DNA of 64,000 nt from positions 649,760 through 713,759 of the forward strand of contig NZ_CALPBY010000003.1 in the NCBI RefSeq assembly GCF_943181405.1. Reading direction: 5' to 3'. The number at the start of each line of letters is the position of its first letter. Positions within the stretch are counted from its first letter, which is position 1. Below the pieces are notes generated by a model. It made no database searches, was not told where the DNA came from, and saw only the letters and a program-made list of their open reading frames with translations. The stretch comes from Cellulosimicrobium sp. Marseille-Q4280. GTDB lineage: Bacteria; Actinomycetota; Actinomycetes; Actinomycetales; Cellulomonadaceae. Positions 5,498 through 19,505 of this stretch are shown here, one piece after another. The translations under genes were made by a program, and so were the position numbers.

Positions 5498-5533
5498 AAC
5501 GTAGGGGCACTTCTGACGACCGTCAACCAAAAG
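5498..5533 (-). promoter_or_regulatory. Leaderless promoter overlapped by ROK-type operator O1
   Basis: On the minus strand, -35 TTGACG (5526-5521), a 17-bp spacer and -10 TACGTT (5503-5498) predict initiation at about 5491, right at the ATG of the oxidoreductase. The 24-bp operator 5510-5533 (plus strand CTTCTG...CAAAAG) covers the -35 and most of the spacer. It matches two other copies near the ROK repressor gene, at 17958-17981 and 18240-18263. Binding there should block RNA polymerase. A further 12-bp palindrome GGTGAAGTCACC lies upstream at 5557-5568 and may bind another regulator. Confidence 0.75.
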
Positions 5534-5591
5534 CCGACCGATTGTGGTCTCGTTTAGGTGAAGTCACCCATAAAACAATCACGAACGAACA

Positions 5592-5632
5592 CGCCACCGC
5601 CCCCGGCCGCGAAGCGGACGGAGGCGGTGGCG
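5592..5632 (-). terminator. Hairpin terminator after sugar isomerase gene
   Basis: Perfect 10-bp arms CGCCACCGCC (5592-5601) and GGCGGTGGCG (5623-5632) enclose a second imperfect stem (CCGGCCGC gaa GCGGACGG). It begins 54 bases past the isomerase stop. On the minus strand it is followed by a T-richer stretch (5591 downwards, including TTGTTTT). It separates the isomerase transcript from the leaderless oxidoreductase promoter. Confidence 0.7.
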
Positions 5633-5685
5633 CATCGGACGTCGTGCCCCGGGCGCAGGACCCGGGAGCCGTGCGGCGGCAGGCG

Positions 5686-6687
5686 CTACTTCGTCGAGAA
5701 CGCGGCGTCGAACGCGGCGTCGGGCGCGTCGAACGCGTACTTCTTGACGAACTCGAGGGCTTCGGGGGCGCCGATCAGGCGGTCCATGCCGGCGTCCTCC
5801 CACTCGACGGAGATCGGGCCGTCGTAGCCGATCGTGTTGAGCATGCGGAACGCGTCCTCCCAGGGCACGTCCCCGTGGCCGGTCGAGATGAAGTCCCAGC
5901 CGCGACGCGGGTCGGCCCAGGCGAGGTGCGAGCCCATCCGGCCGTTGCGGCCGTTGCCCATCCGCTTCTTCGTGTCCTTGCAGTCCACGTGGTAGATGCG
6001 GTCCTTGAAGTCCCACAGGAAGCTGACCGGGTCGAGGTCCTGCCACACCATGTGGCTCGGGTCCCAGTTGAGGCCGAAGGCCTCGCGGTGCCCGATCGCC
6101 TCGAGCGTGCGCACGGTCGTCCAGTAGTCGTACGCGATCTCGCTCGGGTGCACCTCGTGCGCGAACCGCACGCCGACCTCGTCGAACACGTCGAGGATCG
6201 GGTTCCAGCGGTCGGCGAAGTCCTGGTAGCCGGCGTCGATCGCCTCCTGGGAGACCGGCGGGAACATCGCGACGTACTTCCAGATCGCGGAGCCGGTGAA
6301 CCCGACGACGGTCTTCACGCCGAGCTTCGCGGCGAGGCGCGCGGTGTGCTTCATCTCCTCCGCGGCACGCTGGCGCACGCCCTCGGGGTCGCCGTCGCCC
6401 CAGACGACGTCCGGCAGGATGTCGCGGTGGCGCTGGTCGATCGGGTCGTCGCACACGGCCTGACCCTTGAGGTGGTTCGAGATGGCGTAGACCTTGAGGT
6501 CGTACTTCGCCAGCAGGTCGAGCTTGCCCTGGACGTACTCCTCGTCGTCCCAGCGCCACGGGTCGAGGTGGTCGCCCCAGCAGGCGATCTCGAGCCCGTC
6601 GTAGCCCCACCCGGAGGCCAGGCGGGCCACCTCCTCGAACGGCAGGTCGGCCCACTGCCCCGTGAAGAGGGTGATCGGTCGTGCCAT
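5686..6687 (-). CDS. Sugar phosphate isomerase/epimerase-like TIM-barrel protein
   Basis: A 333-residue member of the xylose-isomerase-like TIM-barrel family (AP_endonuc_2 fold). Probable metal ligands occur in conserved strand ends: [28 protein letters not shown] and ISVEWEDAG. The start ATG has a strong AAGGAGAA site 6 bases upstream. It lies 37 bp after the small surface-protein gene and is probably co-transcribed with it. In characterised clusters such proteins act after Gfo/Idh oxidoreductases, for example as keto-sugar isomerases or 3-oxo-glycoside lyases. The two Gfo/Idh genes nearby make a similar role likely here, but the exact reaction cannot be read from sequence. Confidence 0.9.
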
Positions 6688-6724
6688 GGTCGTTCTCCTT
6701 CGTCGATCTCGGTTCGGCCCGGGG

Positions 6725-7402
6725 TCACCGGGTGGACGTGCTGGTCAAGGATCGGGCGCGTCGACGTGCCACGACGACGCCGAGCGCACCCACCGCGACG
6801 ACGGCCGCGGCGAGCAGCACCCACAGGAGCGGCCCGGACCCGGAGGACGACGCCCCGTCGCCCTCGCCGGGGTCGGCGGCCGCGTCGGACCCGGCCGTCG
6901 ACCCCTCGGTGGCGTCGCCGTCGGCCGCGTCCGCGGCGCTCCCGTCGCCCTCCGCGGGCGCCGGTGGCTCGGCCGGCGGGACGACGTCGACCTCGGCGCT
7001 CGCGGTCGCCTCGGACGGGTCCGTCATCGTCGCCGTGAGCACCCAGTGGCCCTCGGCCAGGACGCCGGGGTCGGACACGTACCAGCCGACCCCCTCGGAG
7101 GCGGAGCGCAGCGCGATCGGTCCGACCGTCTCCCCCGCGTCGGACTCGGCCGTGACGGAGACGTCGGCCGCCTCTTCGACCGGGTGCCCGTCGATCTTGT
7201 AGGTGAGGTTCGCCGAGACCCCGCCCGCGCCGTCGGTCCCGAGCGAGATGACGATGTCGCCGCCGTGCGCCGTCGCCGGCGCCGTCAGCCCCGCGAGGAC
7301 GAGGACGGCACCGAGCGCAGCGGTCAGCAGCACGCGGACCGCGGTCACGGGCGCCGTCAGGGCCGTCGACCGCCGCGGGGCGGTCCGGGGGGAACGAGAC
7401 AT
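6725..7402 (-). CDS. Predicted surface protein with signal peptide, Ig-like domain and C-terminal anchor
   Basis: 225 residues, not assigned to a characterised gene. A signal peptide (hydrophobic about residues 22-43, cleavage near ATAHGG) leads to a roughly 95-residue beta-sandwich-like domain ([20 protein letters not shown] ...). This is reminiscent of FixH/YtkA-type or CopC-like folds. Next come a 55-residue Ala/Asp/Ser/Gly-rich acidic linker, one transmembrane helix ([22 protein letters not shown]) and a short RRRAR tail. It is probably anchored at the cell surface with the folded domain outside. It lies between the giant secreted ThuA protein and the isomerase in the same direction. A role in sensing or binding is possible but not shown. 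Confidence 0.8.
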
Positions 7403-7419
7403 CGGGTGGTCTCCTCGTC

Positions 7420-7462
7420 GTGTCGGTCGGACGTGTCGTGTCGGTCGGACGTGTCGTGTCGT
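7420..7462. repeat. Short tandem repeat (18-bp unit)
   Basis: Two exact copies of GTGTCGGTCGGACGTGTC (7420-7437 and 7438-7455) are followed by a degraded third (GTGTCGTGTCAGTC). They sit directly upstream of the ribosome binding site of the surface-protein gene, so copy-number change could alter its leader. Confidence 0.8.
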
Positions 7463-7476
7463 GTCAGTCGTCTCAC

Positions 7477-7564
7477 GGGGACCGTGCGGTCCCCGGGGTG
7501 CCCCGGCGCCGGGCCGGAGCGCCCGGTACCCGGGCGCCGGGGCCGAGGACCGCGGACGGTCCCC
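7477..7564. other. Extended GC-rich inverted repeats, 286-bp gap between surface-protein and giant ThuA genes
   Basis: Nested inverted repeats: GGGGACCGT (7477-7485) with ACGGTCCCC (7556-7564), and inside them CCCCGGCGCC (7501-7510) with GGCGCCGGGG (7533-7542). They could fold into one long cruciform-like RNA or DNA structure. Apart from this, the terminator at 7651-7682 and the tandem repeat, I see nothing coding in the gap. Confidence 0.55.
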
Positions 7565-7650
7565 GTCGTGCTCGTCGTGCGGGCAGGGTACGGGCGGTCC
7601 GGCCGATGGACCTCCCGTACCCCTGTGCGCCCGTGCGGCGAGCGCGTCGC

Positions 7651-7682
7651 CCGGCGGGTCGGCGCGTGCGCCGACCCGCCGG
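7651..7682 (-). terminator. Strong hairpin terminator after the giant ThuA gene
   Basis: Perfect 15-bp arms CCGGCGGGTCGGCGC (7651-7665) and GCGCCGACCCGCCGG (7668-7682) begin 6 bases past the stop codon of the 1670-residue secreted protein. The position is typical of an intrinsic terminator in high-GC actinobacteria, which often lack a U tract. Confidence 0.8.
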
Positions 7683-7688
7683 AACCTG

Positions 7689-10600
7689 TCAGGCGCAGCT
7701 CTGAGCGGCGTGCTCCACCGTCTCGGAGAACGTCCTCCCCTCGGCGTCGGTGGCCGTGACGGTCACGGACCCGGCGTCCACCGCGACGGCGCGCGCGGCG
7801 AACGACTGGTACGCGGCCTTGCCCGGCGCGACGTCGGCGAACGACTTCGACCCGTACGGGGTCTCGAGGGTCACCGCGAGCGGCACCTCGTCGTCGTTCG
7901 TCGCCCGCACCGCGAGGAAGACCTTGCCGGCGATGCACCGCGGCTCGGCCGTCACGGTGACCGCGAGCGGCGCCGGCTCGTCGTCGACCACCCGGAAGTA
8001 GTCGAACGACGCCGGAGCACCGGTGTCGGCCGCGGCACCGAGCGCGAAGAGACCGACCTGGGCCCCGGCGGCGGGAGCGTTGGTCACGCTCTCGTCGAAC
8101 GTGGTCCACGTCGTGCCGTCCGCGCTGTACGCACCGGCGAACGTGTCACCGGAGCGCGTCAGGCGCAGGTGCCACACGTCACCCGTGAGGCTCCCCGTCT
8201 GGGGCTGCGGGTTCTGCACCACGCCGCCGACCTCGCTGCGCAGCTCGATCCGGGCGTTCTTGGCCTGGCCCGCCGTGTTGTCGACGACGTAGTCGAGCTT
8301 GACGTAGTTGTCGTCGTCGCCGTAGACCAGCAGGCCGCCCTGCTGGTACTGACGATCCAGCGCCGAGCCGTCGACCACGGTCTCCACCGTCCACTCCTCA
8401 CCCGGCTGGTCCTGCAGCACCAGGTTCGGCACGGGTCGGTTGTCCGTCCCGTAGATGTCGGTCGGGGTCGTGTCGATCTGCAGCGAGCCGTCCGCCACGC
8501 GGTAGCCCGTCGGGTCCTCGTTCACGACCGTCCAGCGGCACGCGTCGAGCGCGTCGCCGTCGAACTCGTCGTCCGGCCCGGGGGCGGACGCCGTGTCGTC
8601 GGGCGTGATGTGGAACCAGTCGAACTGGGCGTCCAGGATCGGCGACGCCGTCCCGTTGCCCTTGAGCGACACGAGGCCGATCTGCGCGTTCTCGAGGTCG
8701 GCGATCGACTTGGTCTGCGGCATCGTCGTGAAGGTGGTGCCGTCGGCCGAGTATGCCGCCTGGAGAGACGCCCCGTCACTGACGAAGCGCACGTAGACCG
8801 TGTCGGGGAACGCCGCGCCGAGAGCGGCGGAGTTGGACTCCCCGACCTCGTTGGGAGCGGCGTTCTCCTCCCGGATGAACTGGAAGATGCGCGTCGCCGG
8901 GTCGGCCGCGGCCGAGCGTCCCTGGATCACCATCTTCGCGTAGTTGTCCTGGTCCTCCCAGATGACGAGGCCCGCCTGCTGGTACTGCTGGCGTGCCGGC
9001 AGCGTCAGCTTGGCCGTGGCCGTGAACGGCCCGTCCGGCAGGTCCTGGAGCACCAGGTTGGGCACCGTCGTGTTGTTCGTGCCGTAGAAGTCGGTCGCCG
9101 TGGTGGGCACCACGAGCTGACCGTCCTCGACCGCCAGGTTCTGGTCGCGGTTCAGGACCGTCCAGCGGTCCTCGTCGAGCTCCGCGCCGAGGAAGTCGTC
9201 CGAGCGGCCCGAGAAGCACATCCCCGGGTCGGTCTGCTCGGCCTCCACCGTCACGGTCGTGTACTCGACCGAGTACGCGCCGCGCTCGTCCGTGGCACGG
9301 ACCTGGAGCCGGTACTCGCCCGGCTCGTCGTACGTGACCTCGAACGAGCCCGTACCGTCGACGAAGCCGTCACCGAGACCGGCGTCCCAGGCGAACTTGA
9401 CCGCCTCGTCCTCCGGGTCGGTGGCCGTCGCCGTCGCCGTGACGGTCAGCGGTGCGGTGCCCGAGGTCGGCGTGACCTCGAACGTGTCGATCGACGGACG
9501 GACGTTGTCCGTGACGCCGCGACCGTTGACGACCATCCAGTTGACGTTCGACTGGCCTGTCGTCTGGACGAAGTACAGCGTGCCGCTGCCCTCCGGGACG
9601 TCGTGCAGCTCGGCCGTGATGTCCGAGTAGGTCTGCCAGGCACCCGCAGGAACGGTGAGGCTGCCGATCTCCGGCCCCTCCGGGTCGTCCCAGCGCAGCG
9701 AGACGGTCCCGCCGGGCTCCGACGCCGCGCGCAGCGTGATCGAGTCGACGTTCGCCAGGGAGATCGGCTCGTGCGCCCACCAGTCGTCCACCTCGATGAA
9801 CCCGATGTTCAGGCCACCGCCCGCGGTGTCGCCCGTGGTCTCGGTCTGCACGCCGGGGTCGCCCGCGCTCGTCGAGCCCTCGAGACGACCGGTCGACGTG
9901 AAGAACTCCGACTGGAGCAGCTTCGGCTGGAGGATCTGCAGGTCGTTCGCCGTCAGCGGGACGCCCACGGCGCCACCGTCGTCGGTGTACATCGCCTCGA
10001 CCACCCAGAAGATGTTCGACTCGATGCCGTGGCCCTCGTCGCGCGCCGTCTGGAGCGTGCCCTCGCAGCCCGTGAGCTCCTCCATCGGGTGAGCGTGCGA
10101 GTCGTGGCCGAGCGACGTGAACAGCGTGACGTTCTCGCACGTGACCTCCCCGTCGGGGTCGTCCACGGCGATCTCGTACCTCACCTGGTCACCCCACTCG
10201 AAGAAGCCGCCGTTCTCCGGGAACGTGATGGAGACGGTCGGTGCCTCGTTGCCGACGACGATCGTCACGTTCGCGACGCCGGTCGCGCCGTTCTCGTCCG
10301 TCGCGACCAGCTGGGCGGTGTAGCTGCCGTTCTCCGTGTACGTGTGCACGGGGTTCGCCTCGGTGGACGGCTCCGAGCCGTCGCCGAAGGTCCACTGGAG
10401 CGTGAGCGGGTCGCCCGCCGGGTGACGGGTGCCCTCCGAGGAGAACTGCACCGTCAGCGGCGCGGCGCCGCTCGTCACGTCCGCGCTCGCGCGGGCGATC
10501 GGGGCGGGGTCGCCCTGGACGTAGTTGACCTTGTAGACGCCGCTGGAGTCGTTGTTCCCGCCGAAGCCGGAACCCCAGTCGATGACGTACAGCGCGCCGT

Positions 10601-12701
10601 CGGGCCCGAAGTCGAAGTCCATCGGACGGTCGAAGCCGACCGACGGGTCGAAGACCCCCGGCAGGACCCGGTTGATGTCGACGAGGTCGTCACGCTGCTC
10701 GCCGTCGAGCTGGAACGAGTACATCCGGCCCTGGTTCCACTCGCCGAACAGTGCCTTGCCGTCCCAGTACTCCGGCCACTTGACGTCCGAGTCGAGCTCG
10801 GGGTCGTAGTCGTACACCGGTCCGCCCATGGGCGCACCGCCGCCGCCGATCTCCGGGAAGAGCGGGTTCGTCTGGTAGCCGTACCAGACCTCGGCCTCGA
10901 TCGCCCCGGGCAGCTGCTGCAGACCCGTGTTGTTGGGAGAGTTGTTCACCACGCCCGCGGCGCAGTCGAAGGCCGCGCCGGACTGCCCCGTGGCGAAGTT
11001 GTAGTCGACGTAGTCGTTGTTCGCGCCGGTGCAGTACGGCCAGCCGTAGAACCCCGGGTCGCTCACGACGTTCCACTCGACCGTGCCGGCCGGGCCACGC
11101 GTCGCGCTGGCGCTGCCCGCGTCAGGACCGTAGTCCCCGACGAGCACGTTGCCCGTCGAGGGGTCGACGCCGATGCGGAACGGGTTGCGGAAGCCCATCG
11201 CGAAGACCTCGGGCTTCGTCTGCGCGGTGCCCGGCGCGAACATGTTCCCCTCGGGGATCGTGTACGTGCCGTCGTCCTCCGGGTGGATCCGCAGGACCTT
11301 GCCGCGCAGGTCGTTCGTGTTGGCCGACGTGCGCTGCGAGTCGTAGTTCTGCCGCCCCGCGCGCTCGTCGATCGGCGCGAAGCCGCCCGACTCGAACGGG
11401 TTGGTGTTGTCACCGGTGACGACGAAGAGGTTGCCCTCGGCGTCGAAGACCATGTCGCCGCCCGCGTGGCAGCACGTCTCGCGCTGGGTCGGGATGACGA
11501 GGACCTTCTCCTCCGACGCGAGCGAGATCGTCCGCGCCGCGGCGTCGTAGTCGAACCGCGAGACCCGGTTGTGGGGACCGTCGGTCCCGACGTCCTGGGG
11601 CGACCAGAAGAGGTAGACCCAGCCGTTCTCGGCGAAGTCGGGGTCGAGCACGACGCCCGTGAGACCGTCCTCGTTGGCCTGCGTGACCGACAGCGTCGCG
11701 GCGGTGGTCGTCTGGTTCGTCGCCGGGTCGATGACACGCACGCGCCCGTCGCGCTCGACGTAGAAGACCGTCCCGTCGGGGGCGACGTCGAGCATCATCG
11801 GGTTCGCGGTGTTCTCGTCGAGCGGCACCATCTCGTAGCTGTCGGACTGCGTGGCGTTGCAGTCCGAGGGCACGACGCCCGCCGCGGTCTGGATGCCGCC
11901 CAGCAGGTGCTGGAGGAACTCCGGCTCCGCGTACGACTCGTCCGTGTGGCCGCCGCCGGTGTACCAGGAGCGGCCGCCGTCGTAGACCTGGCACCACGCC
12001 GTGGGGTGCTCGGCGCCCATCGCGCCGGAGCCCGCGGAGTAGGTGGTCTCGTCGAGGCTCGCGAGCACGTGCACCGTGTCGCGCGGGTTCGTGCGGAAGT
12101 TGTACCACTCGTCGAAGCGGTCCCAGCGCGCCGGGAGGTGCGCCGTGGACTCGTGGACGTGGTCCTCGACCTTGATGGTCGCGTCCTGGTTCTGCGGGTG
12201 CGCGCTGAAGTAGGCGCCGACGAGCTCGCCGTACCACGGCCAGTCGTACTCGGTGTCGGACGCCGCGTGGATGCCCGCGTACCCGCCGCCGGACTGGACG
12301 TAGCGCTCGAACGCCGCCTGCTGGTCGTCGTTCAGCACGTCGCCGGTCGTGGAGAGCCACACCACGGCCTCGTACTGCGCGAGGTTCTCGTCGGTGAACG
12401 CCCCCGCGTCCTCCGTGGCCGTCACCTCGAAACCGTTATCGGTACCGAGCTGCTGGATCGCCGCGATCCCCGCGGGGATCGACCCGTGGCGGAACCCGGC
12501 GGTCTTGCTGAAGACGAGCACGTCGAACGGGACGGTCTCCGCGGCCGCGGCCACGGGTGCTGTCGCGATCGGGCTCGTGGAGGGAAGGGCTGCCGTGGCG
12601 GACGTCGCCGTCGCCAGGGTCAAGGGCAGAGCGACCGCTGCCGCGGCGACCGCCGCGACCGTGCGCCTCCGGGCGCGCGATCCTCCAAGCACGTTTCTCA
12701 C
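7689..12701 (-). CDS. Giant secreted ThuA / glucose-sorbosone dehydrogenase-like / PKD / carbohydrate-binding protein
   Basis: 1670 residues from a GTG with GAGGAG upstream. An Arg-rich signal peptide (about 1-37) precedes a ThuA-like domain (about 57-275; GYAGIHAASDTEYDWPWYGELVGAYFSAHP). Next is a glucose/sorbosone dehydrogenase-like beta-propeller (about 290-725; CCHAGGDMVFD, AMGFRNPFRIGVD, YVIDWGSGFGG), then a PKD domain (about 730-815; LQWTFGDGSEPS) and an Ig-like segment. A CBM6-like module (about 935-1065; SLRWDDPEGPEIGSLTVPAG) and a second PKD domain (about 1075-1157) follow. Two tandem concanavalin-like/DUF1349-type modules (about 1165-1370 and 1375-1575) and an Ig-like tail complete it. 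It is probably extracellular and acts on or binds polymer-linked sugars. The domain order is clear; the reaction is unknown. It is probably expressed apart from the ABC operon, because terminators lie on both sides. Confidence 0.9.
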   Translation of the reverse strand: MRNVLGGSRARRRTVAAVAAAAVALPLTLATATSATAALPSTSPIATAPVAAAAETVPFDVLVFSKTAGFRHGSIPAGIAAIQQLGTDNGFEVTATEDAGAFTDENLAQYEAVVWLSTTGDVLNDDQQAAFERYVQSGGGYAGIHAASDTEYDWPWYGELVGAYFSAHPQNQDATIKVEDHVHESTAHLPARWDRFDEWYNFRTNPRDTVHVLASLDETTYSAGSGAMGAEHPTAWCQVYDGGRSWYTGGGHTDESYAEPEFLQHLLGGIQTAAGVVPSDCNATQSDSYEMVPLDENTANPMMLDVAPDGTVFYVERDGRVRVIDPATNQTTTAATLSVTQANEDGLTGVVLDPDFAENGWVYLFWSPQDVGTDGPHNRVSRFDYDAAARTISLASEEKVLVIPTQRETCCHAGGDMVFDAEGNLFVVTGDNTNPFESGGFAPIDERAGRQNYDSQRTSANTNDLRGKVLRIHPEDDGTYTIPEGNMFAPGTAQTKPEVFAMGFRNPFRIGVDPSTGNVLVGDYGPDAGSASATRGPAGTVEWNVVSDPGFYGWPYCTGANNDYVDYNFATGQSGAAFDCAAGVVNNSPNNTGLQQLPGAIEAEVWYGYQTNPLFPEIGGGGAPMGGPVYDYDPELDSDVKWPEYWDGKALFGEWNQGRMYSFQLDGEQRDDLVDINRVLPGVFDPSVGFDRPMDFDFGPDGALYVIDWGSGFGGNNDSSGVYKVNYVQGDPAPIARASADVTSGAAPLTVQFSSEGTRHPAGDPLTLQWTFGDGSEPSTEANPVHTYTENGSYTAQLVATDENGATGVANVTIVVGNEAPTVSITFPENGGFFEWGDQVRYEIAVDDPDGEVTCENVTLFTSLGHDSHAHPMEELTGCEGTLQTARDEGHGIESNIFWVVEAMYTDDGGAVGVPLTANDLQILQPKLLQSEFFTSTGRLEGSTSAGDPGVQTETTGDTAGGGLNIGFIEVDDWWAHEPISLANVDSITLRAASEPGGTVSLRWDDPEGPEIGSLTVPAGAWQTYSDITAELHDVPEGSGTLYFVQTTGQSNVNWMVVNGRGVTDNVRPSIDTFEVTPTSGTAPLTVTATATATDPEDEAVKFAWDAGLGDGFVDGTGSFEVTYDEPGEYRLQVRATDERGAYSVEYTTVTVEAEQTDPGMCFSGRSDDFLGAELDEDRWTVLNRDQNLAVEDGQLVVPTTATDFYGTNNTTVPNLVLQDLPDGPFTATAKLTLPARQQYQQAGLVIWEDQDNYAKMVIQGRSAAADPATRIFQFIREENAAPNEVGESNSAALGAAFPDTVYVRFVSDGASLQAAYSADGTTFTTMPQTKSIADLENAQIGLVSLKGNGTASPILDAQFDWFHITPDDTASAPGPDDEFDGDALDACRWTVVNEDPTGYRVADGSLQIDTTPTDIYGTDNRPVPNLVLQDQPGEEWTVETVVDGSALDRQYQQGGLLVYGDDDNYVKLDYVVDNTAGQAKNARIELRSEVGGVVQNPQPQTGSLTGDVWHLRLTRSGDTFAGAYSADGTTWTTFDESVTNAPAAGAQVGLFALGAAADTGAPASFDYFRVVDDEPAPLAVTVTAEPRCIAGKVFLAVRATNDDEVPLAVTLETPYGSKSFADVAPGKAAYQSFAARAVAVDAGSVTVTATDAEGRTFSETVEHAAQSCA

Positions 12702-12786
12702 AAGGTCTCCTCGTCGAGATGGGGGAACAGTGCTGCGCTCCGCCCGGGGCGGCGTCGTCGGCCTGCCTGCCGAGTCCCGGGACCGT

Positions 12787-12809
12787 CGGCGGGCCGTGTC
12801 GGCCCGCCG
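12787..12809. other. Hairpin in the 262-bp gap 12702-12963
   Basis: Perfect 9-bp arms CGGCGGGCC/GGCCCGCCG with a GTGTC loop lie 86 bases upstream of the GTG of the giant secreted protein. It could be a second terminator or a leader structure. The rest of the gap shows no coding sequence; the terminator at 12921-12942 is listed separately. Confidence 0.5.
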
Positions 12810-12920
12810 GTCGTCGGCCGCTGCGTCGCGGCCTGCGACCTCCTCTCGTCCGACCGGTCCGCCGGCCCGCACCGTCGCGGGTCCGGCAGCGCCGGTGGTT
12901 CCAGTGGTTCCGAGCGCAGA

Positions 12921-12942
12921 CCCGACGCCGGACGGCGTCGGG
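12921..12942 (-). terminator. Terminator of the second ABC/oxidoreductase operon
   Basis: Perfect 10-bp arms CCCGACGCCG and CGGCGTCGGG, separated by GA, lie 21 bases past the stop of the second Gfo/Idh gene. No U tract follows. It separates this operon from the giant ThuA gene. Confidence 0.7.
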
Positions 12943-12963
12943 CCCGCTCGGGTCATCGCCCGG

Positions 12964-14136
12964 TCAGGGCTCGACCCAGCTTCCGGACGCCGCGCTGCGC
13001 TCCACCGCGTCGAGCACGCGCTGGACCGCGAGACCGTCCGCGAACGTCGGCGACGGCTGCGTGCCCGACGCGATCGCCTCGACGAGGTCGACCACCTGGT
13101 GGGTGAACGCGTGCTCGTACCCGAGGCCGTGACCCGCGGGCCACCAGTTCGCGACGTACGCGTGCTCGGGCTCCGTGACGACGATGCGCCGGAAGCCCGC
13201 CGTCGCGGCGTCCTCGGCCGCGTCGAAGAAGTGCAGGACGTTCATGTCCTCGAAGTCGAACGCGAGCGAGCCCCGGGAGCCGTTGATCTCGAGGCGGATC
13301 GCGTTCTTGCGCCCGTAGGCGAACCGGGTCGCCTCGAAGGTCCCGATCCCACCCCCGGAGAGACGCGCGAGGAAGATCGCGGCGTCGTCGACCGTGACCG
13401 GACCACGCTCGGCGCCGCCCTGCCCGGTGAGACCGGTGAACTCCGTGGCGACGGGACGCTCGGTCACGAAGGTCTCGAGCAGACCCGACACGCTCGTCAC
13501 GCGCTCGCCCGTGATGAACTGCGCGAGGTCGATGACGTGCGCGCCGATGTCGCCCAGCGCGCCGCTGCCGGCCTTGGTCTTGTCGAGACGCCACGAGAGC
13601 GGGGCGTCCTCGTCGGCGATCCAGTCCTGCAGGTACTGGGCCCGCACGTGGCGGACGGTACCGATCCGGCCGTCGGTGACGAGCCGGCGCGCGAGCTGGA
13701 TCGCCGGGACACGACGGTAGGTGAAGCCGACCATCGCGACCTGGCCGCGCGAGGCGGCCGCCTCCGCCGCGGCGACCATCTGCTCCGCCTCGGCGACCGT
13801 GTTGGCGAGCGGCTTCTCGCACAGCACGTGCTTGCCGGCCTCGAGCGCGGCGATCGCGATCTCCGCGTGGGTGTCGCCGGGGGTGCACACGTCGACGAGG
13901 TCGACGTCGTCCCGTGCGACGAGGGACTGCCAGCTCGTCTCCGTGGACTCCCACCCGAGACGCTCCGCGGCGGTCTTGACCGCCTCCGGGTTGCGCCCGC
14001 CGAGCACGCGCATGCGCGGCTCGAGGGGGAGGTCGAAGAACCGGGGGGCGGTACGCCATGCCTGCGAGTGCGCTGCCCCCATGAACGAGTACCCGACCAT
14101 GCCGACGCCGAGCTGCGCGCCGTTGCTGTGTGTCAT
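12964..14136 (-). CDS. Gfo/Idh/MocA-family oxidoreductase (second)
   Basis: 390 residues. The Rossmann motif GVGMVGYSFMG is near residues 10-20, and HVLCEKPLAN contains the conserved Lys-Pro. Conserved C-terminal features include SWRLDKTKAGSGALGDIGAH and GHGLGYEHAF. The ATG at 14136 has AAAGGAAC 6 bases upstream and is preferred over an in-frame upstream start. It is the last gene of the second ABC operon, behind a strong hairpin. Such enzymes oxidise or reduce sugars, inositols or their keto derivatives with NAD(P). It resembles the enzyme at 4231-5490 in family only, so the pair may catalyse successive or opposite redox steps. Confidence 0.92.
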   Translation of the reverse strand: MTHSNGAQLGVGMVGYSFMGAAHSQAWRTAPRFFDLPLEPRMRVLGGRNPEAVKTAAERLGWESTETSWQSLVARDDVDLVDVCTPGDTHAEIAIAALEAGKHVLCEKPLANTVAEAEQMVAAAEAAASRGQVAMVGFTYRRVPAIQLARRLVTDGRIGTVRHVRAQYLQDWIADEDAPLSWRLDKTKAGSGALGDIGAHVIDLAQFITGERVTSVSGLLETFVTERPVATEFTGLTGQGGAERGPVTVDDAAIFLARLSGGGIGTFEATRFAYGRKNAIRLEINGSRGSLAFDFEDMNVLHFFDAAEDAATAGFRRIVVTEPEHAYVANWWPAGHGLGYEHAFTHQVVDLVEAIASGTQPSPTFADGLAVQRVLDAVERSAASGSWVEP

Positions 14137-14154
14137 GACGTTCCTTTCGTGCGC

Positions 14155-14200
14155 GCGCCCACGGTCCGGCCGGGCTCTCACCCGGGCGGACCGTGGGCGC
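14155..14200 (-). terminator. Strong intra-operon hairpin between binding-protein and oxidoreductase genes
   Basis: Perfect 14-bp arms GCGCCCACGGTCCG (14155-14168) and CGGACCGTGGGCGC (14187-14200) surround a smaller stem CCGGG/CCCGG. It sits 30 bases past the binding-protein stop and 18 bases before the next gene. Such hairpins usually protect or partly terminate, giving more binding protein than downstream enzyme. Confidence 0.7.
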
Positions 14201-14229
14201 GGTCCGCGTGCTGCTGTCTGCCTAGGCGC

Positions 14230-15297
14230 TCAGGACTGGAACGCGGTGGGCAGGTACTGCTCGACGTTGTCCGCGGTGACGACCGGGGCGAAGAGCTGGA
14301 CGGTGCGCGGCACGCCGGACGATGCGAGGTCGCTCATGTTCTTCTCGTGCGCGACGAGACGGGCGAGCTTGATGCCGTCCGCGGCCTGGGTCGACGGGTA
14401 GACGACCGTGGCCTGGAGGACCGAGTCGTCGGCCTGGATGTGCTCCATGACCTGCTGCGAGCCGGCGCCGCCGACCATGAAGAACTCGTCGCGGCCCGCG
14501 TTCTCGATGGCCGAGAGCACGCCGACGCCCTGGTCGTCGTCGTGGTTCCAGATGGCGTCGATCTGGGGCTCGGCCTGCAGCAGGTTGGCCGTCGCCGCCT
14601 CGCCGCCCTGGACGGTGAAGTCGCCCTGGACCTGCGTCGAGACCTCGAGGCCGCAGTCGGACAGCGCGTCCGCGAAGCCCTGGCTGCGGTCCTGGGTGAG
14701 CGGGAGCGACGCGATGCCCTGGATCTCCGTCACGACGGCGTCGGGGTTGTCGCCGAGCTCCTCGCAGATGTAGGTGCCGGCGGACACGCCCATGCCGTAG
14801 TTGTCGCCGAGGACCGTGGAGCGCGCGGCGAACGGGCTCGAGAACTCGCGGTCGACGTTGATGACCGGGATCCCGGCCTCCATCGCCTGCGTCGCGACGT
14901 CGGTGAGCGCCGCGCCGTCGAACGGCAGGAGCACGATCGCGTCGACGCCGTCGTTGATGAAGCCCTCGATCTGGCTGATCTGCACGTTGACGTCGTTCGT
15001 GCCCTCGGCGACGCGGAGCTCGACGTCCTCGTAGTTCTCCGCCTCGGCCCTGGCGGCCGCCGTGATGGCACCCATCCAGCCGTGGTCGGCGGCGGGGGCC
15101 GAGAAGCCGATGACGACCTCCTCGCCCGCGGCGTCGTTGTCGGAGACGGCCTGGTTGGTGCCGCCCCCGCCGTCACCGTCCGCCGTGTCCTCGTCGGCCG
15201 GGGTGTTCGAGGTGCATGCCGTGGCGATCAGCGCGATCGACGCGGCGGAGACCGTCGCGATCGTGATGCGGCGACGGAGGGTGGTGCGTGCGGACAT
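14230..15297 (-). CDS. Sugar ABC transporter substrate-binding lipoprotein (periplasmic-binding-protein family 4/ribose type)
   Basis: 355 residues with a lipoprotein signal ending LIATAC (Cys about 28), followed by an Asp/Gly-rich linker. The mature domain begins EEVVIGFSAPAADHGWMGAI and has the RbsB-type features ISQIEGFINDGVDAIVLLPF, IPVINVDREF and WNHDDDQGVGVLSAI. A strong AAGGAGAT site precedes the ATG at 15297, which rules out the long upstream extension of the open frame. It delivers substrate to the permease and double ATPase encoded just upstream. The ligand is probably a monosaccharide, polyol or small glycoside. Confidence 0.95.
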   Translation of the reverse strand: MSARTTLRRRITIATVSAASIALIATACTSNTPADEDTADGDGGGGTNQAVSDNDAAGEEVVIGFSAPAADHGWMGAITAAARAEAENYEDVELRVAEGTNDVNVQISQIEGFINDGVDAIVLLPFDGAALTDVATQAMEAGIPVINVDREFSSPFAARSTVLGDNYGMGVSAGTYICEELGDNPDAVVTEIQGIASLPLTQDRSQGFADALSDCGLEVSTQVQGDFTVQGGEAATANLLQAEPQIDAIWNHDDDQGVGVLSAIENAGRDEFFMVGGAGSQQVMEHIQADDSVLQATVVYPSTQAADGIKLARLVAHEKNMSDLASSGVPRTVQLFAPVVTADNVEQYLPTAFQS

Positions 15298-15389
15298 GGG
15301 ATCTCCTTCGATGCTGTCCTGCTGGGAGCGGGGACTACGGGGGTGGTGCTTGAGGACGGGGTGGGTGGTGCGACGACGACGCCGGGGCG

Positions 15390-16421
15390 TCATGTCCGGC
15401 GGACGAGGCGCTGCTGGAGCAGGACCGCGCCGACGATGATGGCCCCCTTGACGATCTGCTGGACCGAGCTGTCGACGTCGTTGAGGATGAAGACGTTGGT
15501 GAGCGTCGTGAAGATGAGGACGCCCAGGACCGTGCCGACGATCGTGCCGCGGCCGCCCACGAGGAGCGTGCCGCCGACGACCACCGCGGCGATGGCGTCG
15601 AGCTCGAGGAGCAGACCGTTGGTCGAGGCGCCGGCGCTCGTGCGAGCGAGGATCATCACCGCGGCGATGCCGGCCGTGAGGCCGGAGAGCGCGTACACGT
15701 ACATGAGGTGACGCTTGACCTTGATGCCGGCGAGGCGCGCGGCCTCGGGGTTGCCACCGACGGCGACGGTACGACGACCGAACGTCGTGCGGTTGAAGAG
15801 GAACCAGCCGAGCACGGCGACGAGCGCGAAGATCCAGACGATCTTCGGGACGCCGATGAGGTTGCCCTTGAAGACGTCGTCGAACGCCTGGACGTCCACG
15901 ATCTGCGTGCGCCGCTGCGCGATGAGCTCGGCGAGCCCGCGCGCGGCGACGAGCATCGCGAGCGTCGCGATGAACGCCACGACCCTGCCGTACGCGATGA
16001 TCACGCCGTTGATGAGGCCGGCGCAGAGGCCGACGGCGACCGCGCACACGAGCATCACGGGCCAGCCGTACGACTGGGTCGCGAGGGTCGTCGCCCAGAC
16101 CGAGGCGAGCCCGAGGACCGAACCGACCGACAGGTCGATGCCTCCCGTCGTGATGACGAACGTCATCCCGATGCTCACCACTCCGAGGACGGAACCCAGG
16201 CTGAGGATGGTCATGAGGTTGCTGACGCTCGCGAAGCGTTCCCCCCCGGTCGCGAAGCCCACGACGCACAGGAGGAGCAGGGCCACGACCAGACCCACGT
16301 TGCGTCCCGCTGCTCCTGACAGGAGGCCGCTGCGACGCGAGCCGCTCGCCGCGTCCTGCTTCTCGACGCGGGCTGACTCGTCCGCGTTCGGCGTCGACGC
16401 CGACACCCTTTGCTCGCTCAC
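15390..16421 (-). CDS. Ribose-type sugar ABC transporter permease
   Basis: 343 residues, RbsC/BPD_transp_2 family. Hallmarks are FVITTGGIDLSVGSVLGLAS, GRVVAFIATLAMLVAARG and AVVVGGTLLVGGRGTIVGT. The start is a GTG overlapping the ATPase stop by four bases (GTGA, 16418-16421); a longer open frame upstream is shadow. It is the only permease in this operon, so it probably works as a homodimer, unlike the paired permeases of the first operon. Confidence 0.93.
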   Translation of the reverse strand: MSEQRVSASTPNADESARVEKQDAASGSRRSGLLSGAAGRNVGLVVALLLLCVVGFATGGERFASVSNLMTILSLGSVLGVVSIGMTFVITTGGIDLSVGSVLGLASVWATTLATQSYGWPVMLVCAVAVGLCAGLINGVIIAYGRVVAFIATLAMLVAARGLAELIAQRRTQIVDVQAFDDVFKGNLIGVPKIVWIFALVAVLGWFLFNRTTFGRRTVAVGGNPEAARLAGIKVKRHLMYVYALSGLTAGIAAVMILARTSAGASTNGLLLELDAIAAVVVGGTLLVGGRGTIVGTVLGVLIFTTLTNVFILNDVDSSVQQIVKGAIIVGAVLLQQRLVRRT

Positions 16422-17938
16422 GCGACACTTCCTTCCATGACCATGTCGAGCACCTGGTGCTCGTCGATCGATGCGGTGGGTCCTTCGTGCACCACGCGAC
16501 CCTCGGAGATGACGAGGACGCGGTCCGCCAGACCCAGGACTTCGGGGATCTCGCTCGAGACGACGACGACGGCGGCGCCCTCGTCGGCGAGGCGGCGGAT
16601 CAGGGCGTAGATCTCCGCGCGCGCCCCGACGTCCACGCCGCGCGTGGGCTCGTCGAGGAGCAGGACGCGGCACCCGTGGACGAGCCACCGGGCGAGCATC
16701 GCCTTCTGCTGGTTCCCGCCCGAGAGCGTGCGGATGGGGCGGTCCACGCCGGTGGGGCGCAGCTCGAGCGAGTCGGCCTGCTCCTTCGCCGCGCGGCGCT
16801 CGGCCCGCTCGTCGAGGAAGCCTCCCTTGGCGAACCGGGAGAAGGTCGAGAGCGTGACGTTGCGGTAGACCGGCTCGTCGAGGAGGAGCCCCTGGCTCTT
16901 GCGCTCCTCGGGCGCGAGACCGATGCCCGCGTCCACGGCCGAGGCGACCGAACCGACGCGCAGCCGGCGCCCGTCGACCTCGACGCGGCCGGCGGTCGCG
17001 CGGCGCGCCCCGTAGACGGTCTCGAGGATCTCCGACCGTCCCGAGCCGACGAGGCCCGCGAGCCCGACGATCTCCCCGGCACGGACCTGCATGCTCACGT
17101 CGGCGAACGTGCCGCGCAGGGACAGGCCCGCGACGTCGAGGACGACGGGGGCGCCGTCGGGCAGCTCGGTGGCGTCCGGGAACACGTACTCGACGGACCG
17201 GCCCGTCATGAGGGTGATGAGCTTGACCGTCGGCGTCTCGGAGACCGGGAGGTTCTGGGCCACGGTGCGCCCGTCCTTGAGGACGGTGATGCGGTCGCCG
17301 ATCTCCCGGATCTCCTCGAGCCGGTGCGAGATGTAGACGACGGCGACACCTGCGGCCGTGAGCTCCTTGACGACGCGGAAGAGGTTGCCGACCTCCTCGG
17401 AGTCCAGGACCGCCGACGGCTCGTCCATGACGATGACGCGCGCGTCGTGCGACAGGGCCCGCGCCATCGAGACGATCTGCTTCCCGGCGGCCGAGAGGTT
17501 CCCGACCTCCTTGCTCGGCGAGATCTCCGAGTGGCCGAGCCGCTTGAGGATCTCCCGCGTGCTGCGCACCGCCTCGCGGCGCTGGGAGAACCCCATCGTG
17601 GACAGCTCGTGACCGAGGTAGACGTTCTCGGCGACGGTCAGGCCGTCGACGACGTCGAGCTCCTGGTACATCGTCGCGACCCCGTGCCGCAGCGCGGCGA
17701 CCGGGTCGGAGATGTTGATGGGCTCCCCGTCGAGGAGGATCTGCCCTTCGGTCGGCTGGTGGGCGCCGGCGAGCACCTTGATGAGCGTGGACTTGCCGGC
17801 GCCGTTCTGACCGAGAAGGCAGTGGACCTCACCGGGGAGGATCTCGAGGTCCACCCCGTCGAGCGCTCGCGCTCCGGGGAAGACCTTGACGATGCCCTGC
17901 ATCTGCAGGAACGGCTGGTGGGGGTCTGCTCTGACCAT
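16418..17938 (-). CDS. Sugar ABC transporter ATP-binding protein with two nucleotide-binding domains
   Basis: 506 residues, RbsA type. Domain 1 has Walker A GQNGAGKST (about residues 43-51), a divergent signature NLSAAGKQ and Walker B VIVMDEPSAVL. Domain 2 has the degenerate GLVGSGRSE, TLSGGNQQKAML and VLLLDEPTRGVD. The start at 17938 (MVRADPHQ) is preferred over an in-frame start 36 bases upstream. The latter would place operator and -10 box inside the gene, whereas TAGGTT ends 7 bases before 17938, predicting a leaderless message. It is the first gene of the second importer operon and is directly under the ROK-type operator O2. Confidence 0.94.
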   Translation of the reverse strand: MVRADPHQPFLQMQGIVKVFPGARALDGVDLEILPGEVHCLLGQNGAGKSTLIKVLAGAHQPTEGQILLDGEPINISDPVAALRHGVATMYQELDVVDGLTVAENVYLGHELSTMGFSQRREAVRSTREILKRLGHSEISPSKEVGNLSAAGKQIVSMARALSHDARVIVMDEPSAVLDSEEVGNLFRVVKELTAAGVAVVYISHRLEEIREIGDRITVLKDGRTVAQNLPVSETPTVKLITLMTGRSVEYVFPDATELPDGAPVVLDVAGLSLRGTFADVSMQVRAGEIVGLAGLVGSGRSEILETVYGARRATAGRVEVDGRRLRVGSVASAVDAGIGLAPEERKSQGLLLDEPVYRNVTLSTFSRFAKGGFLDERAERRAAKEQADSLELRPTGVDRPIRTLSGGNQQKAMLARWLVHGCRVLLLDEPTRGVDVGARAEIYALIRRLADEGAAVVVVSSEIPEVLGLADRVLVISEGRVVHEGPTASIDEHQVLDMVMEGSVA

Positions 17939-17945
17939 GTGCCTG

Positions 17946-17981
17946 AACCTAGGGCATCTTTTGACGAGCGTCAATCATAAG
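17946..17981 (-). promoter_or_regulatory. Leaderless promoter overlapped by ROK-type operator O2
   Basis: Minus-strand -35 TTGACG (17974-17969), a 17-bp spacer and -10 TAGGTT (17951-17946) put the start site at about the ATG of the ATPase (17938). The 24-bp operator 17958-17981 (plus strand CTTTTG, central ACGAGCGT, then CAATCATAAG) covers the -35. It has the same geometry as O1. Confidence 0.78.
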
Positions 17982-18323
17982 TCGTGGACTTTCACCCGCG
18001 TTACCGGACCGTTACCGTCAAAAGTGCCTCGACGCGCGGCCCGCTGCAGAGCTGGCGCCGCGGCGACCGCTGCAACCGGACGCCGCATCGACGGGGCCGT
18101 GGGACAGGAGCTGAGAGGGAGAGGCGCTCGTGCCTCTCGTGACGGGTCGCGGAGCATCGGCGTGGCCTCGGGGCGGTTCGAACCTCCCGCCGGGAGCGCG
18201 GCGACCTCGCTGTCGCCGTACTGCAGGACGGTAGGGTATCTTTTGTCGATCGTCAAGCAAAAGACGTCAGAGTTGCCGTCGATACGGGGCGGCCGTCGAG
18301 AGGCTTCGTGGTTCACTGTGCTC
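17982..18323. other. Non-coding divergent region between second ABC operon and ROK gene
   Basis: About 340 bp without a convincing gene. It contains operator O3, two short hairpin-forming stretches (GGCGAC/GTCGCC near 18204-18221; CTCCCGCCGGGAG near 18183-18196) and one degenerate half-site (GTCAAAAGTGCC near 18017). The short minus-strand readings here lack codon bias or domains. A plus-strand promoter for the ROK gene could not be placed with confidence. Confidence 0.6.
18228..18263 (-). promoter_or_regulatory. ROK-type operator O3 with embedded minus-strand promoter
   Basis: The 24-bp operator 18240-18263 has half-sites CTTTTG and CAAAAG around a central TCGATCGTCAAG. It again overlaps TTGACG (18256-18251), N17 and TACCGT (18233-18228) on the minus strand. 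It lies 61 bp upstream of the ROK start codon, so it is well placed for autoregulation. The minus-strand promoter would make a 280-nt leader for the second ABC operon. Its centre is 282 bp from O2, so looping is possible. Confidence 0.7.
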
Positions 18324-19505
18324 ATGGAGGAGCTCCTGAAGTTCGCACCGCGTCCGACTGGCGCCGGAGACATGTTCCAGCTGCTCCGGGACGGCCAGCC
18401 GCGCACGCGTGCGGACCTCGCGTCGATCACCGGTCAGGCACGGTCGACGATCGCGGCGCGGATCGACCTCCTCATGTCCTCGGGCCTCATCGCCCCCGCC
18501 GGCGAGGCGAGCTCGACCGGCGGGCGCCCGCCCGTGACCTTCGCTTTCAACCCGGGCGCGCGCATCGTGCTGGCCGTCGACCTCGGCGCGACCCACGCAC
18601 GACTCGCCGTGACGGACCTCGCGTCCAACGTCCTCGCGGAGACCGACGCCGCCCTCGCGATCGCGGACGGACCGGACGTCGTGCTGTCCTGGGTCGCCGA
18701 GACGGGCGAGAAGCTCGTCGCGACGACCGGTCGCAGCATCGACGACCTCGTGAGCGTCGGCGTGGGCCTCCCCGGCCCGGTCGAGCACTCCACGGGCCGG
18801 CCGATCAACCCGCCGATCATGCCCTCCTGGGACGACGTGGACGTACCGGGCATCCTGGCGAAGCGCTTCAACGCGTCGGTGCTCGTCGACAACGACGTGA
18901 ACATCATGGCCCTCGGTGAGCACCGGACGGCCTGGCCGGACGTCACGGACATGCTCTTCGTCAAGGTCGCCACGGGCATCGGCTCGGGCATCATCGCCGA
19001 CGGCGAGCTGCGACGAGGCGCCCAGGGAGCGGCCGGCGACATCGGGCACGTCGCGGTGCCCAGCGCCGCCGACGTGCCGTGCCGGTGCGGCAACGTCGGG
19101 TGCCTCGAGGCCGTCGCCAGCGGGCAGTCCGTCGCGAGCATCCTCACGGCCGCCGGGCTCGACGCCCGCACCAGCGCCGACGTCGTGGCGCTGGTCCGCG
19201 CGGGCGACCTCACCGCGAGCCAGGCGGTGCGCCAGGCCGGACGCGACATCGGCTCCGTGCTCGCGGCGTGCGTGAGCCTGCTCAACCCCTCCCTCATCGT
19301 CATCGGCGGCATCGTCGCCGAGGCCGGAGAGCACCTCATCGCCGGCATCCGGGAGATCGTCTACCAGCGGTCGCTGCCCCTGGCGACGCAGCACCTGCGG
19401 ATCGTCACGTCGCAGGCCCGGGGCCAGGCCGGGGTGCTCGGTGCCAGCGCCATGGCGGTCGATCACGTACTCTCTCCCGCAGCGATCGACGCGCTCGTCG
19501 GCTGA
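18324..19505 (+). CDS. ROK-family transcriptional repressor
   Basis: 393 residues. An N-terminal winged helix-turn-helix (about 18-58; GQPRTRADLASITGQARSTI) is followed by a ROK kinase-like sugar-binding domain. That domain has AVDLGAT (84-90), the ND motif LVDNDVN, GDIGH (238-242) and the zinc motif CRCGNVGC (253-260). The ATG start matches the usual length of this family. Members bind a sugar or sugar phosphate and release operators upstream of uptake and catabolic genes. Three copies of a 24-bp operator in this window, one 61 bp upstream of this gene, are the likely targets. It is followed by a ThuA-like gene and an aldolase gene in the same direction. Confidence 0.95.
   Translation: MEELLKFAPRPTGAGDMFQLLRDGQPRTRADLASITGQARSTIAARIDLLMSSGLIAPAGEASSTGGRPPVTFAFNPGARIVLAVDLGATHARLAVTDLASNVLAETDAALAIADGPDVVLSWVAETGEKLVATTGRSIDDLVSVGVGLPGPVEHSTGRPINPPIMPSWDDVDVPGILAKRFNASVLVDNDVNIMALGEHRTAWPDVTDMLFVKVATGIGSGIIADGELRRGAQGAAGDIGHVAVPSAADVPCRCGNVGCLEAVASGQSVASILTAAGLDARTSADVVALVRAGDLTASQAVRQAGRDIGSVLAACVSLLNPSLIVIGGIVAEAGEHLIAGIREIVYQRSLPLATQHLRIVTSQARGQAGVLGASAMAVDHVLSPAAIDALVG

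Follow-up and report, generated by a model that had tools for sequence, protein, structure and literature searches.

A ROK-family regulator gene in Cellulosimicrobium and a conserved dyad over predicted leaderless promoters of putative glycoside-uptake genes and before an ebo-like cluster

The window analysed here is a 64,000-nucleotide stretch of the 4.86-Mb genome of Cellulosimicrobium sp. Marseille-Q4280 (contig NZ_CALPBY010000003.1, positions 649,760 to 713,759). It carries a gene for a ROK-family transcriptional regulator, and three copies of a 24-bp element with the half-sites CTTTTG and CAAAAG or close variants of them, each overlapping a sequence with the form of a promoter. The regulator gene and the three sites are arranged as follows (window positions).

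18324..19505, plus strand: ROK-family transcriptional regulator, 393 aa, proposed repressor (Pfam ROK PF00480, 196.3 bits, cut-off 22.9)
18312..18317, plus strand: proposed -10 of the ROK gene (TGGTTCACT context), 6 nt before the ATG, from the aligned genus loci
5510..5533, minus strand: operator 1, 24 bp, minus-strand reading CTTTTG-N12-CAGAAG; orthologous site in 17/17 genus genomes
5498..5526, minus strand: promoter 1, TTGACG at 5521-5526, N17, TACGTT at 5498-5503; ATG at 5488-5490, 7 nt beyond
17958..17981, minus strand: operator 2, 24 bp, minus-strand reading CTTATG-N12-CAAAAG; orthologous site in 17/17 genus genomes
17946..17974, minus strand: promoter 2, TTGACG at 17969-17974, N17, TAGGTT at 17946-17951; ATG at 17936-17938, 7 nt beyond
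18240..18263, minus strand: operator 3, adjoining the ROK gene, CTTTTG-N12-CAAAAG with both half-sites perfect
18228..18256, minus strand: promoter-like sequence across operator 3, TTGACG-N17-TACCGT, with no gene start behind it

The three elements are the only matches in the window to the 24-bp operator pattern CTTTTGACGANCGTCAANCAAAAG, from which each differs by one mismatch, and the pattern had no match in 100 dinucleotide shuffles of the window, which served as the chance test for both the operator and the operator-promoter block; the coordinates given for them in the initial annotation (5510-5533, 17958-17981 and 18240-18263) are thus correct. The extended operator-promoter block TTGACGNTCGNCANAAGNTNCCCTANNNT, which was derived from the three window sites themselves, matches exactly these three sites and nothing in the shuffles. 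The half-sites had been described as CTTTTG and CAAAAG at all three copies; this holds fully at site 3, but sites 1 and 2 each have one half-site mismatch (plus-strand readings CTTCTG..CAAAAG and CTTTTG..CATAAG, respectively). A minus-strand TTGACG-N17-TAnnnT sequence does overlap each operator, with TACGTT, TAGGTT and TACCGT as the -10 hexamers, and the ATG lies 7 nt past this hexamer at sites 1 and 2, where transcription had been predicted to start at the start codon.

Site 3 differs from the other two sites. Operator 3 is 61-84 bp upstream of the ROK ATG, off the proposed ROK core promoter, and the promoter-like sequence across it lies ~280-290 bp upstream of the gene for importer 2, for which it is possibly a distal promoter. 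The proposed compression of operator, promoter and start codon into about 50 bp is found at sites 1 and 2, where the layout is kept well beyond the genus, but not at site 3. The view that all three sites are equivalent promoters is not supported: we rejected site 3 as a third leaderless promoter because no gene starts there and because genome G001 keeps the dyad at this position but loses the -35. In genomes G003 and G014 TAnnnT is still present at site 3, at a spacing of 18, and therefore the -10 is not lost there. Operator looping between sites 2 and 3 was set aside; their distance ranges over ~224-310 bp among congeners and keeps no constant helical phase. A weak terminator-like hairpin (5583-5602, minus strand; 0.2 expected by chance) separates operator 1 from the TIM-barrel gene.

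The ROK protein has the composition of a regulator rather than that of a kinase. Its match to Mlc spans residues 10-380 and its match to Lmo0178 residues 18-382, the N-terminal part included, so that match coverage points to an N-terminal DNA-binding part in addition to the ROK domain; the PDB matches named as kinases start at residue 77 or later, except 2hoe (a named kinase), which starts at 25. The Pfam scan of the protein reported ROK only, with no separate helix-turn-helix model. The translation contains CRCGNVGCLE, which fits CxCGxxGC, a sequence we take to be the metal motif of the ROK family. The protein scores far below the NCBIfam cut-offs for NagC (167.7 of 650 bits) and Mlc (130.7 of 530). 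It is 88-96% identical to proteins from records named Cellulosimicrobium; a protein in a record titled Sphaerisporangium cinnabarinum, a title that may be a wrong label, is 96% identical. Immediately upstream of the ROK start, 15 of the 16 aligned genus loci read TGATTCACTGTGCCC-ATG, and the window reads TGGTTCACTGTGCTC-ATG.

The occurrence of the operator pattern follows that of the ROK gene, as judged from scans in which the same pattern reversed was the control. In the window's own genome, there are five sites at ≤3 mismatches and none for the reversed pattern; a relaxed pattern adds a sixth site, on contig C6. Sites are present in all 17 genomes of the genus set, again with no match to the reversed control. 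The family set comprises 150 genomes, of which 114 are ROK-positive (E at most 1e-60) and 36 ROK-negative, 16 of these by subtraction; the operator pattern is found in 98/114 ROK-positive and 0/36 ROK-negative genomes, and the reversed control in 5/150. To lessen the effect of kinship, we compared genomes within genera: among ten genera variable for ROK, the operator is present in 33 of 46 genomes with ROK versus 0 of 29 without, and when labels were permuted within genera across all 150 genomes, the observed overlap was reached in 0 of 20000 permutations. In the class set of 296 genomes, the pattern occurs in 27/64 genomes with ROK versus 3/232 without, and in 23 of these 27 the match is within 200 bp of the ROK gene, which is not what chance matches would do.

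Both the spacing and the position of the dyad are conserved next to ROK genes. Of 59 regions upstream of ROK, 56 have the dyad at a spacing of N12 or N13 (≤1 mismatch), and spacers of 4-11 and 14-22 give none. For the best 80 of 403 named ROK loci, a set that overlaps and shares ancestry with these 59 regions, the N12 dyad (≤1 mismatch) is found in 69, versus 0 of 77 control stretches, and the full layout of operator, -10 and leaderless divergent gene in 56, the divergent gene being an ABC ATPase in 51. The initial annotation had placed the ROK gene next to the third copy, and indeed a perfect CTTTTG-N12-CAAAAG lies 60 bp from the ROK start in all 16 genus loci examined. These include G001, in which the -35 inside the dyad is gone, and therefore it is the dyad and not the promoter that is kept at site 3. 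Dyads without TTGAC are also found upstream of ROK in G362, G325, G285 and G437; their persistence means that the element is not only a promoter. The proposal that the element is the operator of the adjacent ROK regulator is supported by genome comparison.

Outside the window, three sets of operator-like sites were left aside or are weaker. The site on contig C4 (G000:C4:125930; L007 6931-6954), with TTGACG-N17-TACTTT, is by eye upstream of a CopC/YcnI-type copper region; similar sites occur in G001, G003 and G014, and it was left unassigned to the regulon. The weaker site on contig C6 (G000:C6:157971-157994, minus strand; L129 3972), with similar matches in 12 of 17 genus genomes, seven of them inspected, lies ~270 nt upstream of a secreted-looking glucose/sorbosone-dehydrogenase/PKD protein in the window's own genome and of a TIM-barrel-like protein in G004; it is a possible further regulon member with a long leader. 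Near-perfect matches at L016 1501-1524 (G008) and L018 1501-1524 (G010), without counterpart among the own-genome sites, precede an uncharacterised, by eye membrane-like protein and were likewise left unassigned.

The distance between the -10 and the ATG is short and fixed throughout the genus, at 7-8 nt for site 1 and 6-7 nt for site 2 in 17/17 genomes, with TAGGTT kept at site 2. Leaderless genes with TANNNT promoters are common in Actinobacteria, with TANNNT ~12 bp before the start codon (PMC3160421), and TANNNT is found ~12 bp upstream of the start codon at both sites. Rare codons are fixed at the start of both genes. Across 14 genus coding sequences of the site 1 gene, Arg is encoded by CGA in 1.6% of cases and Ala by GCA in 2.5%; the site 1 gene nonetheless has CGA as its second codon in 17/17 genus genomes when these are aligned on the operator, and the site 2 ABC gene has GCA as its fourth codon in 16/16 genus sequences. 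Based on the short fixed gap, the TANNNT form and the fixed rare codons, we argue that the genes at sites 1 and 2 likely start leaderless at their ATG. For synonymous constraint, the first eight codons rank 2 of 136 windows at site 1 but 35 of 267 at site 2, and the rank at site 2 rules such constraint out as a general feature.

The genes behind sites 1 and 2, and those around them, encode two sugar importers and a set of sugar-modifying enzymes.

4231..5490, minus strand: Gfo/Idh/MocA oxidoreductase 1 (Pfam, PDB matches); leaderless start proposed at MRADDVAQ, followed by a linker of variable form and then the Rossmann fold
2555..4234, minus strand: sugar ABC ATPase 1, downstream of oxidoreductase 1 (Pfam; start unrefined)
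1455..2555, minus strand: ABC permease (BPD_transp_2) of importer 1 (Pfam; start unrefined)
376..1446, minus strand: ABC permease (BPD_transp_2) of importer 1 (Pfam; start unrefined)
16418..17938, minus strand: sugar ABC ATPase 2 (Pfam); proposed leaderless start MVRADP
15390..16430, minus strand: ABC permease of importer 2 (Pfam)
14230..15300, minus strand: periplasmic sugar-binding protein of importer 2, ribose-type (Pfam, PDB match)
12964..14136, minus strand: Gfo/Idh/MocA oxidoreductase 2, levoglucosan dehydrogenase relative (closest PDB entries 4h3v, 6a3f)
7689..12956, minus strand: large ThuA / glucose-sorbosone dehydrogenase / PKD / CBM6 protein (Pfam)
5686..6687, minus strand: xylose-isomerase-like TIM barrel, matching 2zds and 8ro4, a 2-hydroxy-3-keto-glucal hydratase
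19580..20245, plus strand: ThuA-domain protein downstream of the ROK gene (Pfam)

The catabolic genes resemble those of an oxidation-elimination-hydration-reduction pathway for glycosides or anhydrosugars. The known levoglucosan cluster of Bacillus smithii works by oxidation, elimination, hydration and reduction, and includes an ABC importer and a LacI regulator (PMC7676230). As in this lgdA-B1-B2-C cluster, a dehydrogenase, a hydratase-like TIM barrel and a sugar ABC importer are clustered in the window, and from this likeness we would expect the genes here to serve a route for glycosides or anhydrosugars in which ROK takes the role of LacI. The window differs from the B. smithii cluster (PMC7676230) in this change from a LacI-family regulator to ROK, in having two importers and extra ThuA and glucose-sorbosone dehydrogenase proteins, and in its oxidoreductase 2, which is below the levoglucosan dehydrogenase cut-off. 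That model is the best NCBIfam model for oxidoreductase 2, but neither oxidoreductase reaches it (12964-14136 scores 384.1 bits and 4231-5490 scores 147.7, against a cut-off of 650).

The initial annotation had limited the regulon to two importers, an oxidoreductase and the repressor. This limit does not hold, as the element is likewise found before the leading gene of an ebo-like cluster in 17/17 genus genomes (16 by alignment, together with G012) and in other genera. In the window's own genome, the site is on contig C1, has the same register (TTGACC-N17-TAGGGT) and precedes seven same-strand genes:

Contig C1, ebo-like cluster, in gene order: myo-inositol-1-phosphate-synthase-like, UbiA-family prenyltransferase, TIM barrel, EboA-domain, TatD-like hydrolase, EboE, phosphodiesterase

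The cluster was scanned protein by protein in this genome (L006); elsewhere, the first gene alone was identified by search. The myo-inositol-1-phosphate-synthase-like protein at its head matches PF07994 and PF01658, and the EboA domain (NF035938, 152.7 bits, cut-off 50) and EboE (NF035939, 429.3 bits, cut-off 250) are above threshold. The EboA-domain protein does not reach the EboA family model NF035937 (63.4 of 320 bits), and the UbiA-like protein does not reach the EboC model NF035940 (152.7 of 250 bits) but passes the cut-off of the SCO3242 family (332.3 bits, cut-off 260); we call the cluster ebo-like because EboC misses its cut-off. None of the seven scanned proteins matched EboD, for which no genome-wide search was made. 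At L006 9635-10533 the TIM-barrel gene runs into the EboA gene with no stop in frame, as a fusion, a frameshift or a sequence error; TIM-EboA fusion proteins are mentioned for Actinobacteria (PMC5133447). The cluster is like the ebo cluster of cyanobacteria and eustigmatophyte plastids (PMC6282210, PMC5133447), for which an isoprenoid-cyclitol product has been proposed (PMC5133447), in its EboA-domain, EboE, UbiA-like, TatD-like and phosphodiesterase proteins; it is unlike that cluster in the myo-inositol-phosphate-synthase-like head and in a UbiA-like protein that fits the SCO3242 family and not EboC.

The first ebo-like gene, like the operator, is restricted to genomes with the regulator, being found in 58/114 ROK-positive and 0/36 ROK-negative family genomes. 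Of 30 ebo-like loci, nine are congeners covered by the genus alignment; the other 21 were scored, and all have the element at ≤4 mismatches to the relaxed pattern, each score being reached in ≤1 of 200 shuffles. Further ebo-like loci have the dyad within 2 mismatches in 7 of 8 scored, a ninth (L137) being unscored because it has no myo-inositol-phosphate-synthase motif. Six genomes (G036, G056, G095, G112, G123, G128) have a ROK relative ~6 kb away from the first ebo-like gene, and in G112, G128 and G120 the ebo-like gene itself looks leaderless (ATGGTC...).

The gene behind the operator-promoter block is not always the same. The cassette start ATGCGAGCCGA (MRADD or MRAEE) stands before the Gfo/Idh gene in the genus and in G026, and by eye before a similar oxidoreductase-like protein in G096, but before an ABC ATPase in five Promicromonospora-like genomes (G022, G098, G046, G107, G133) and in G146. 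The ABC ATPase frame behind the MRADD start in G046 (L251 1576) is only 114 codons long. At least two ROK genes are present in G022, each divergent from an ABC ATPase with one operator between them. This arrangement might reflect an ancestral state of two ROK-ABC pairs, of which the window genome would have kept one ROK for both operons, with the oxidoreductase gene now sitting behind the start of one former pair.

From the architecture of the sites, their conservation, their co-occurrence with ROK and the candidate members that they mark, we infer binding, repression, start sites, a ligand and the extents of the operons. We think it probable that the ROK protein encoded at 18324 acts locally to regulate genes for glycoside uptake and catabolism, and with them the ebo-like cluster, through CTTTTG-N12-CAAAAG dyads. 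ROK would bind these dyads; at sites 1 and 2, where the promoter -35 (TTGAC) lies under the dyad and the -10 is 6-8 nt before the ATG, bound ROK would shut out RNA polymerase. A ligand would release ROK from the dyad, and transcription would then begin at or next to the A of the ATG, so that the mRNA would be leaderless. The role of operator 3 is probably autoregulation, a second ROK contact or a distal promoter. The same ROK would also control the ebo-like cluster elsewhere in the genome, whose first gene is predicted to have a leader of about 120 nt in this genome.

Several observations weigh against this interpretation. The support for the proposed operators, start sites and regulation is comparative, and related genomes are not independent counts. 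The pattern is missing from 16 of the 114 ROK-positive family genomes and from 37 of the 64 in the class; some of these have distant ROK relatives or an N13 variant, and others are unexplained. It is present in three class genomes without ROK at the threshold used (G173, G196 and G420), and the reversed control matches in 15 of the 296 class genomes, so that some of the 30 class matches to the pattern may be due to chance. Among the best 80 named loci, 11 are without the dyad, 24 are without the full layout, and off-spacings occur as N9 in three loci and N11 in one. TTGAC is common to pattern and promoter, which inflates the similarity, the ebo-like gene of L136 (G083) has no dyad upstream, and the C4 and C6 sites are less clear than the others.

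Four other explanations were weighed. The block could be a conserved strong leaderless promoter and nothing more, with half-sites that are incidental and a ROK protein that binds elsewhere or nowhere. The conserved block does contain TTGAC and TAnnnT, and Actinobacteria commonly have leaderless promoters of the TANNNT form (PMC3160421), but such a promoter does not account for the dyads that persist where TTGAC is absent, in G001 (site 3) and in front of ROK in the four genomes named above, for a spacing of 12 or 13 in 56/59 loci, or for the absence of the block from all 36 ROK-negative family genomes, and we consider this explanation very unlikely. It is equally improbable that the element is bound by another regulator, such as a LacI- or GntR-type protein or a ROK paralogue encoded elsewhere. 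The LacI-family regulator of the B. smithii levoglucosan cluster (PMC7676230) and the distance of some sites from the ROK gene would fit such a regulator, but the dyad is upstream of this ROK gene in 69/80 named loci and tracks ROK within genera, and six genomes have a ROK relative ~6 kb from the first ebo-like gene.

The two remaining explanations accept the operators but change what happens at them. ROK proteins are described as activators or repressors (PMC9599254), and at site 3, which is 61-84 bp upstream of the ROK ATG and off the proposed core promoter, or at the ebo-like site, ROK might activate, or both activate and repress; we regard this as quite unlikely, given that sites 1 and 2 and the ebo-like site all have the dyad over the -35 in one and the same register. 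Alternatively, the mRNAs might carry leaders from other, upstream starts. The start sites come from prediction, and the promoter-like sequence at site 3, ~280-290 bp upstream of the importer 2 gene, could supply such a start. This, too, is unlikely: the -10 to ATG gap is 6-8 nt at sites 1 and 2 in 17/17 genomes and leaderless layouts are found in 56/80 named loci, and throughout the genus the rare codons CGA and GCA stand unchanged at codon 2 of the site 1 gene and codon 4 of the site 2 gene, respectively.

Promoter 2 may receive a second input, as the sequence upstream of it contains a candidate activator site.

18000..18015, minus strand: GlnR-box-like GTAAC-N6-GTAAC, spanning -77 to -62 relative to the promoter 2 ATG; a possible site for an activator

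The box fits published GlnR boxes (PMC10704036), and a strict GTnAC-N6-GnnAC is found upstream of promoter 2 in 20 of 37 loci, always at -76 to -78. A GlnR-like protein is encoded in the window's own genome; it matches 8hih at E 1.2e-88 and 4o1h, which is named GlnR, at E 2.1e-27. GlnR may thus activate promoter 2 under nitrogen limitation, from a site at about -70, and so add nitrogen control to that by ROK. At 17989-18024, CTTTTG-like and CAAAAG-like half-sites flank the box (36 bp end to end, spacer 24); spacers of N23 and N24 recur upstream of ROK in 9 and 13 of the 59 loci, respectively (≤1 mismatch). These flanking half-sites may form a spaced ROK site or else belong to the activator site.

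Neither ROK repressors nor leaderless genes are new, so the core of this system is ordinary biology, with unusually strong comparative support. The regulator is like Mlc and NagC of E. coli and NagR of Bifidobacterium in its nearly full-length match to Mlc and its dyad operator, although the E. coli Mlc/NagC operator sequence, as we understand it, differs from the window dyad. It is unlike all three in having a predicted leaderless start fused to the operator and an ebo-like cluster in the proposed regulon. Ten of 11 predicted operators of Bifidobacterium NagR overlap a -10 or -35, and several sugar operons are under its control (PMC9599254); in both respects, operators over promoter elements and several sugar operons under one ROK, the window system as proposed is similar. 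RokB of Streptomyces coelicolor, another actinobacterial ROK regulator, binds TTTGTTC-N11-GAACAAA over a start codon, and its sites in that genome are described as lacking a perfect inverted repeat (PMC4856308). The position at a start codon is comparable to that of window sites 1 and 2, but the half-sites differ, and the RokB regulon suggests amino acids and not sugars (PMC4856308). ROK operators over a -35 (NagR, PMC9599254) and a ROK site over a start codon (RokB, PMC4856308) are thus known already, and the novelty lies in regulon membership.

We suggest tentatively, with less than even confidence, a wider reading with two parts. One ROK sensor would tie the import and catabolism of glycosides or anhydrosugars to an ebo-like cluster headed by an inositol-phosphate synthase, across several actinobacterial genera. 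In addition, a portable leaderless cassette of operator, -35, -10, ATG and first codons would be kept as the gene behind it changes, from Gfo/Idh in Cellulosimicrobium-like genomes to an ABC ATPase in Promicromonospora-like ones, and with either an ABC ATPase or the ebo-like gene behind ATGGTC. We found no report of a ROK-ebo link in the openly licensed literature, although our searches were limited and this absence is weak evidence. With its downstream gene changing, the constant block from promoter to first codons lends itself naturally to testing which 5'-end features a leaderless mRNA requires. If the tie between ROK and the ebo-like cluster is true, the ligand of ROK would point to what ebo-type clusters make or handle, and a switch shared with glycoside importers and keto-sugar-type enzymes gives a testable handle on ebo-type function.

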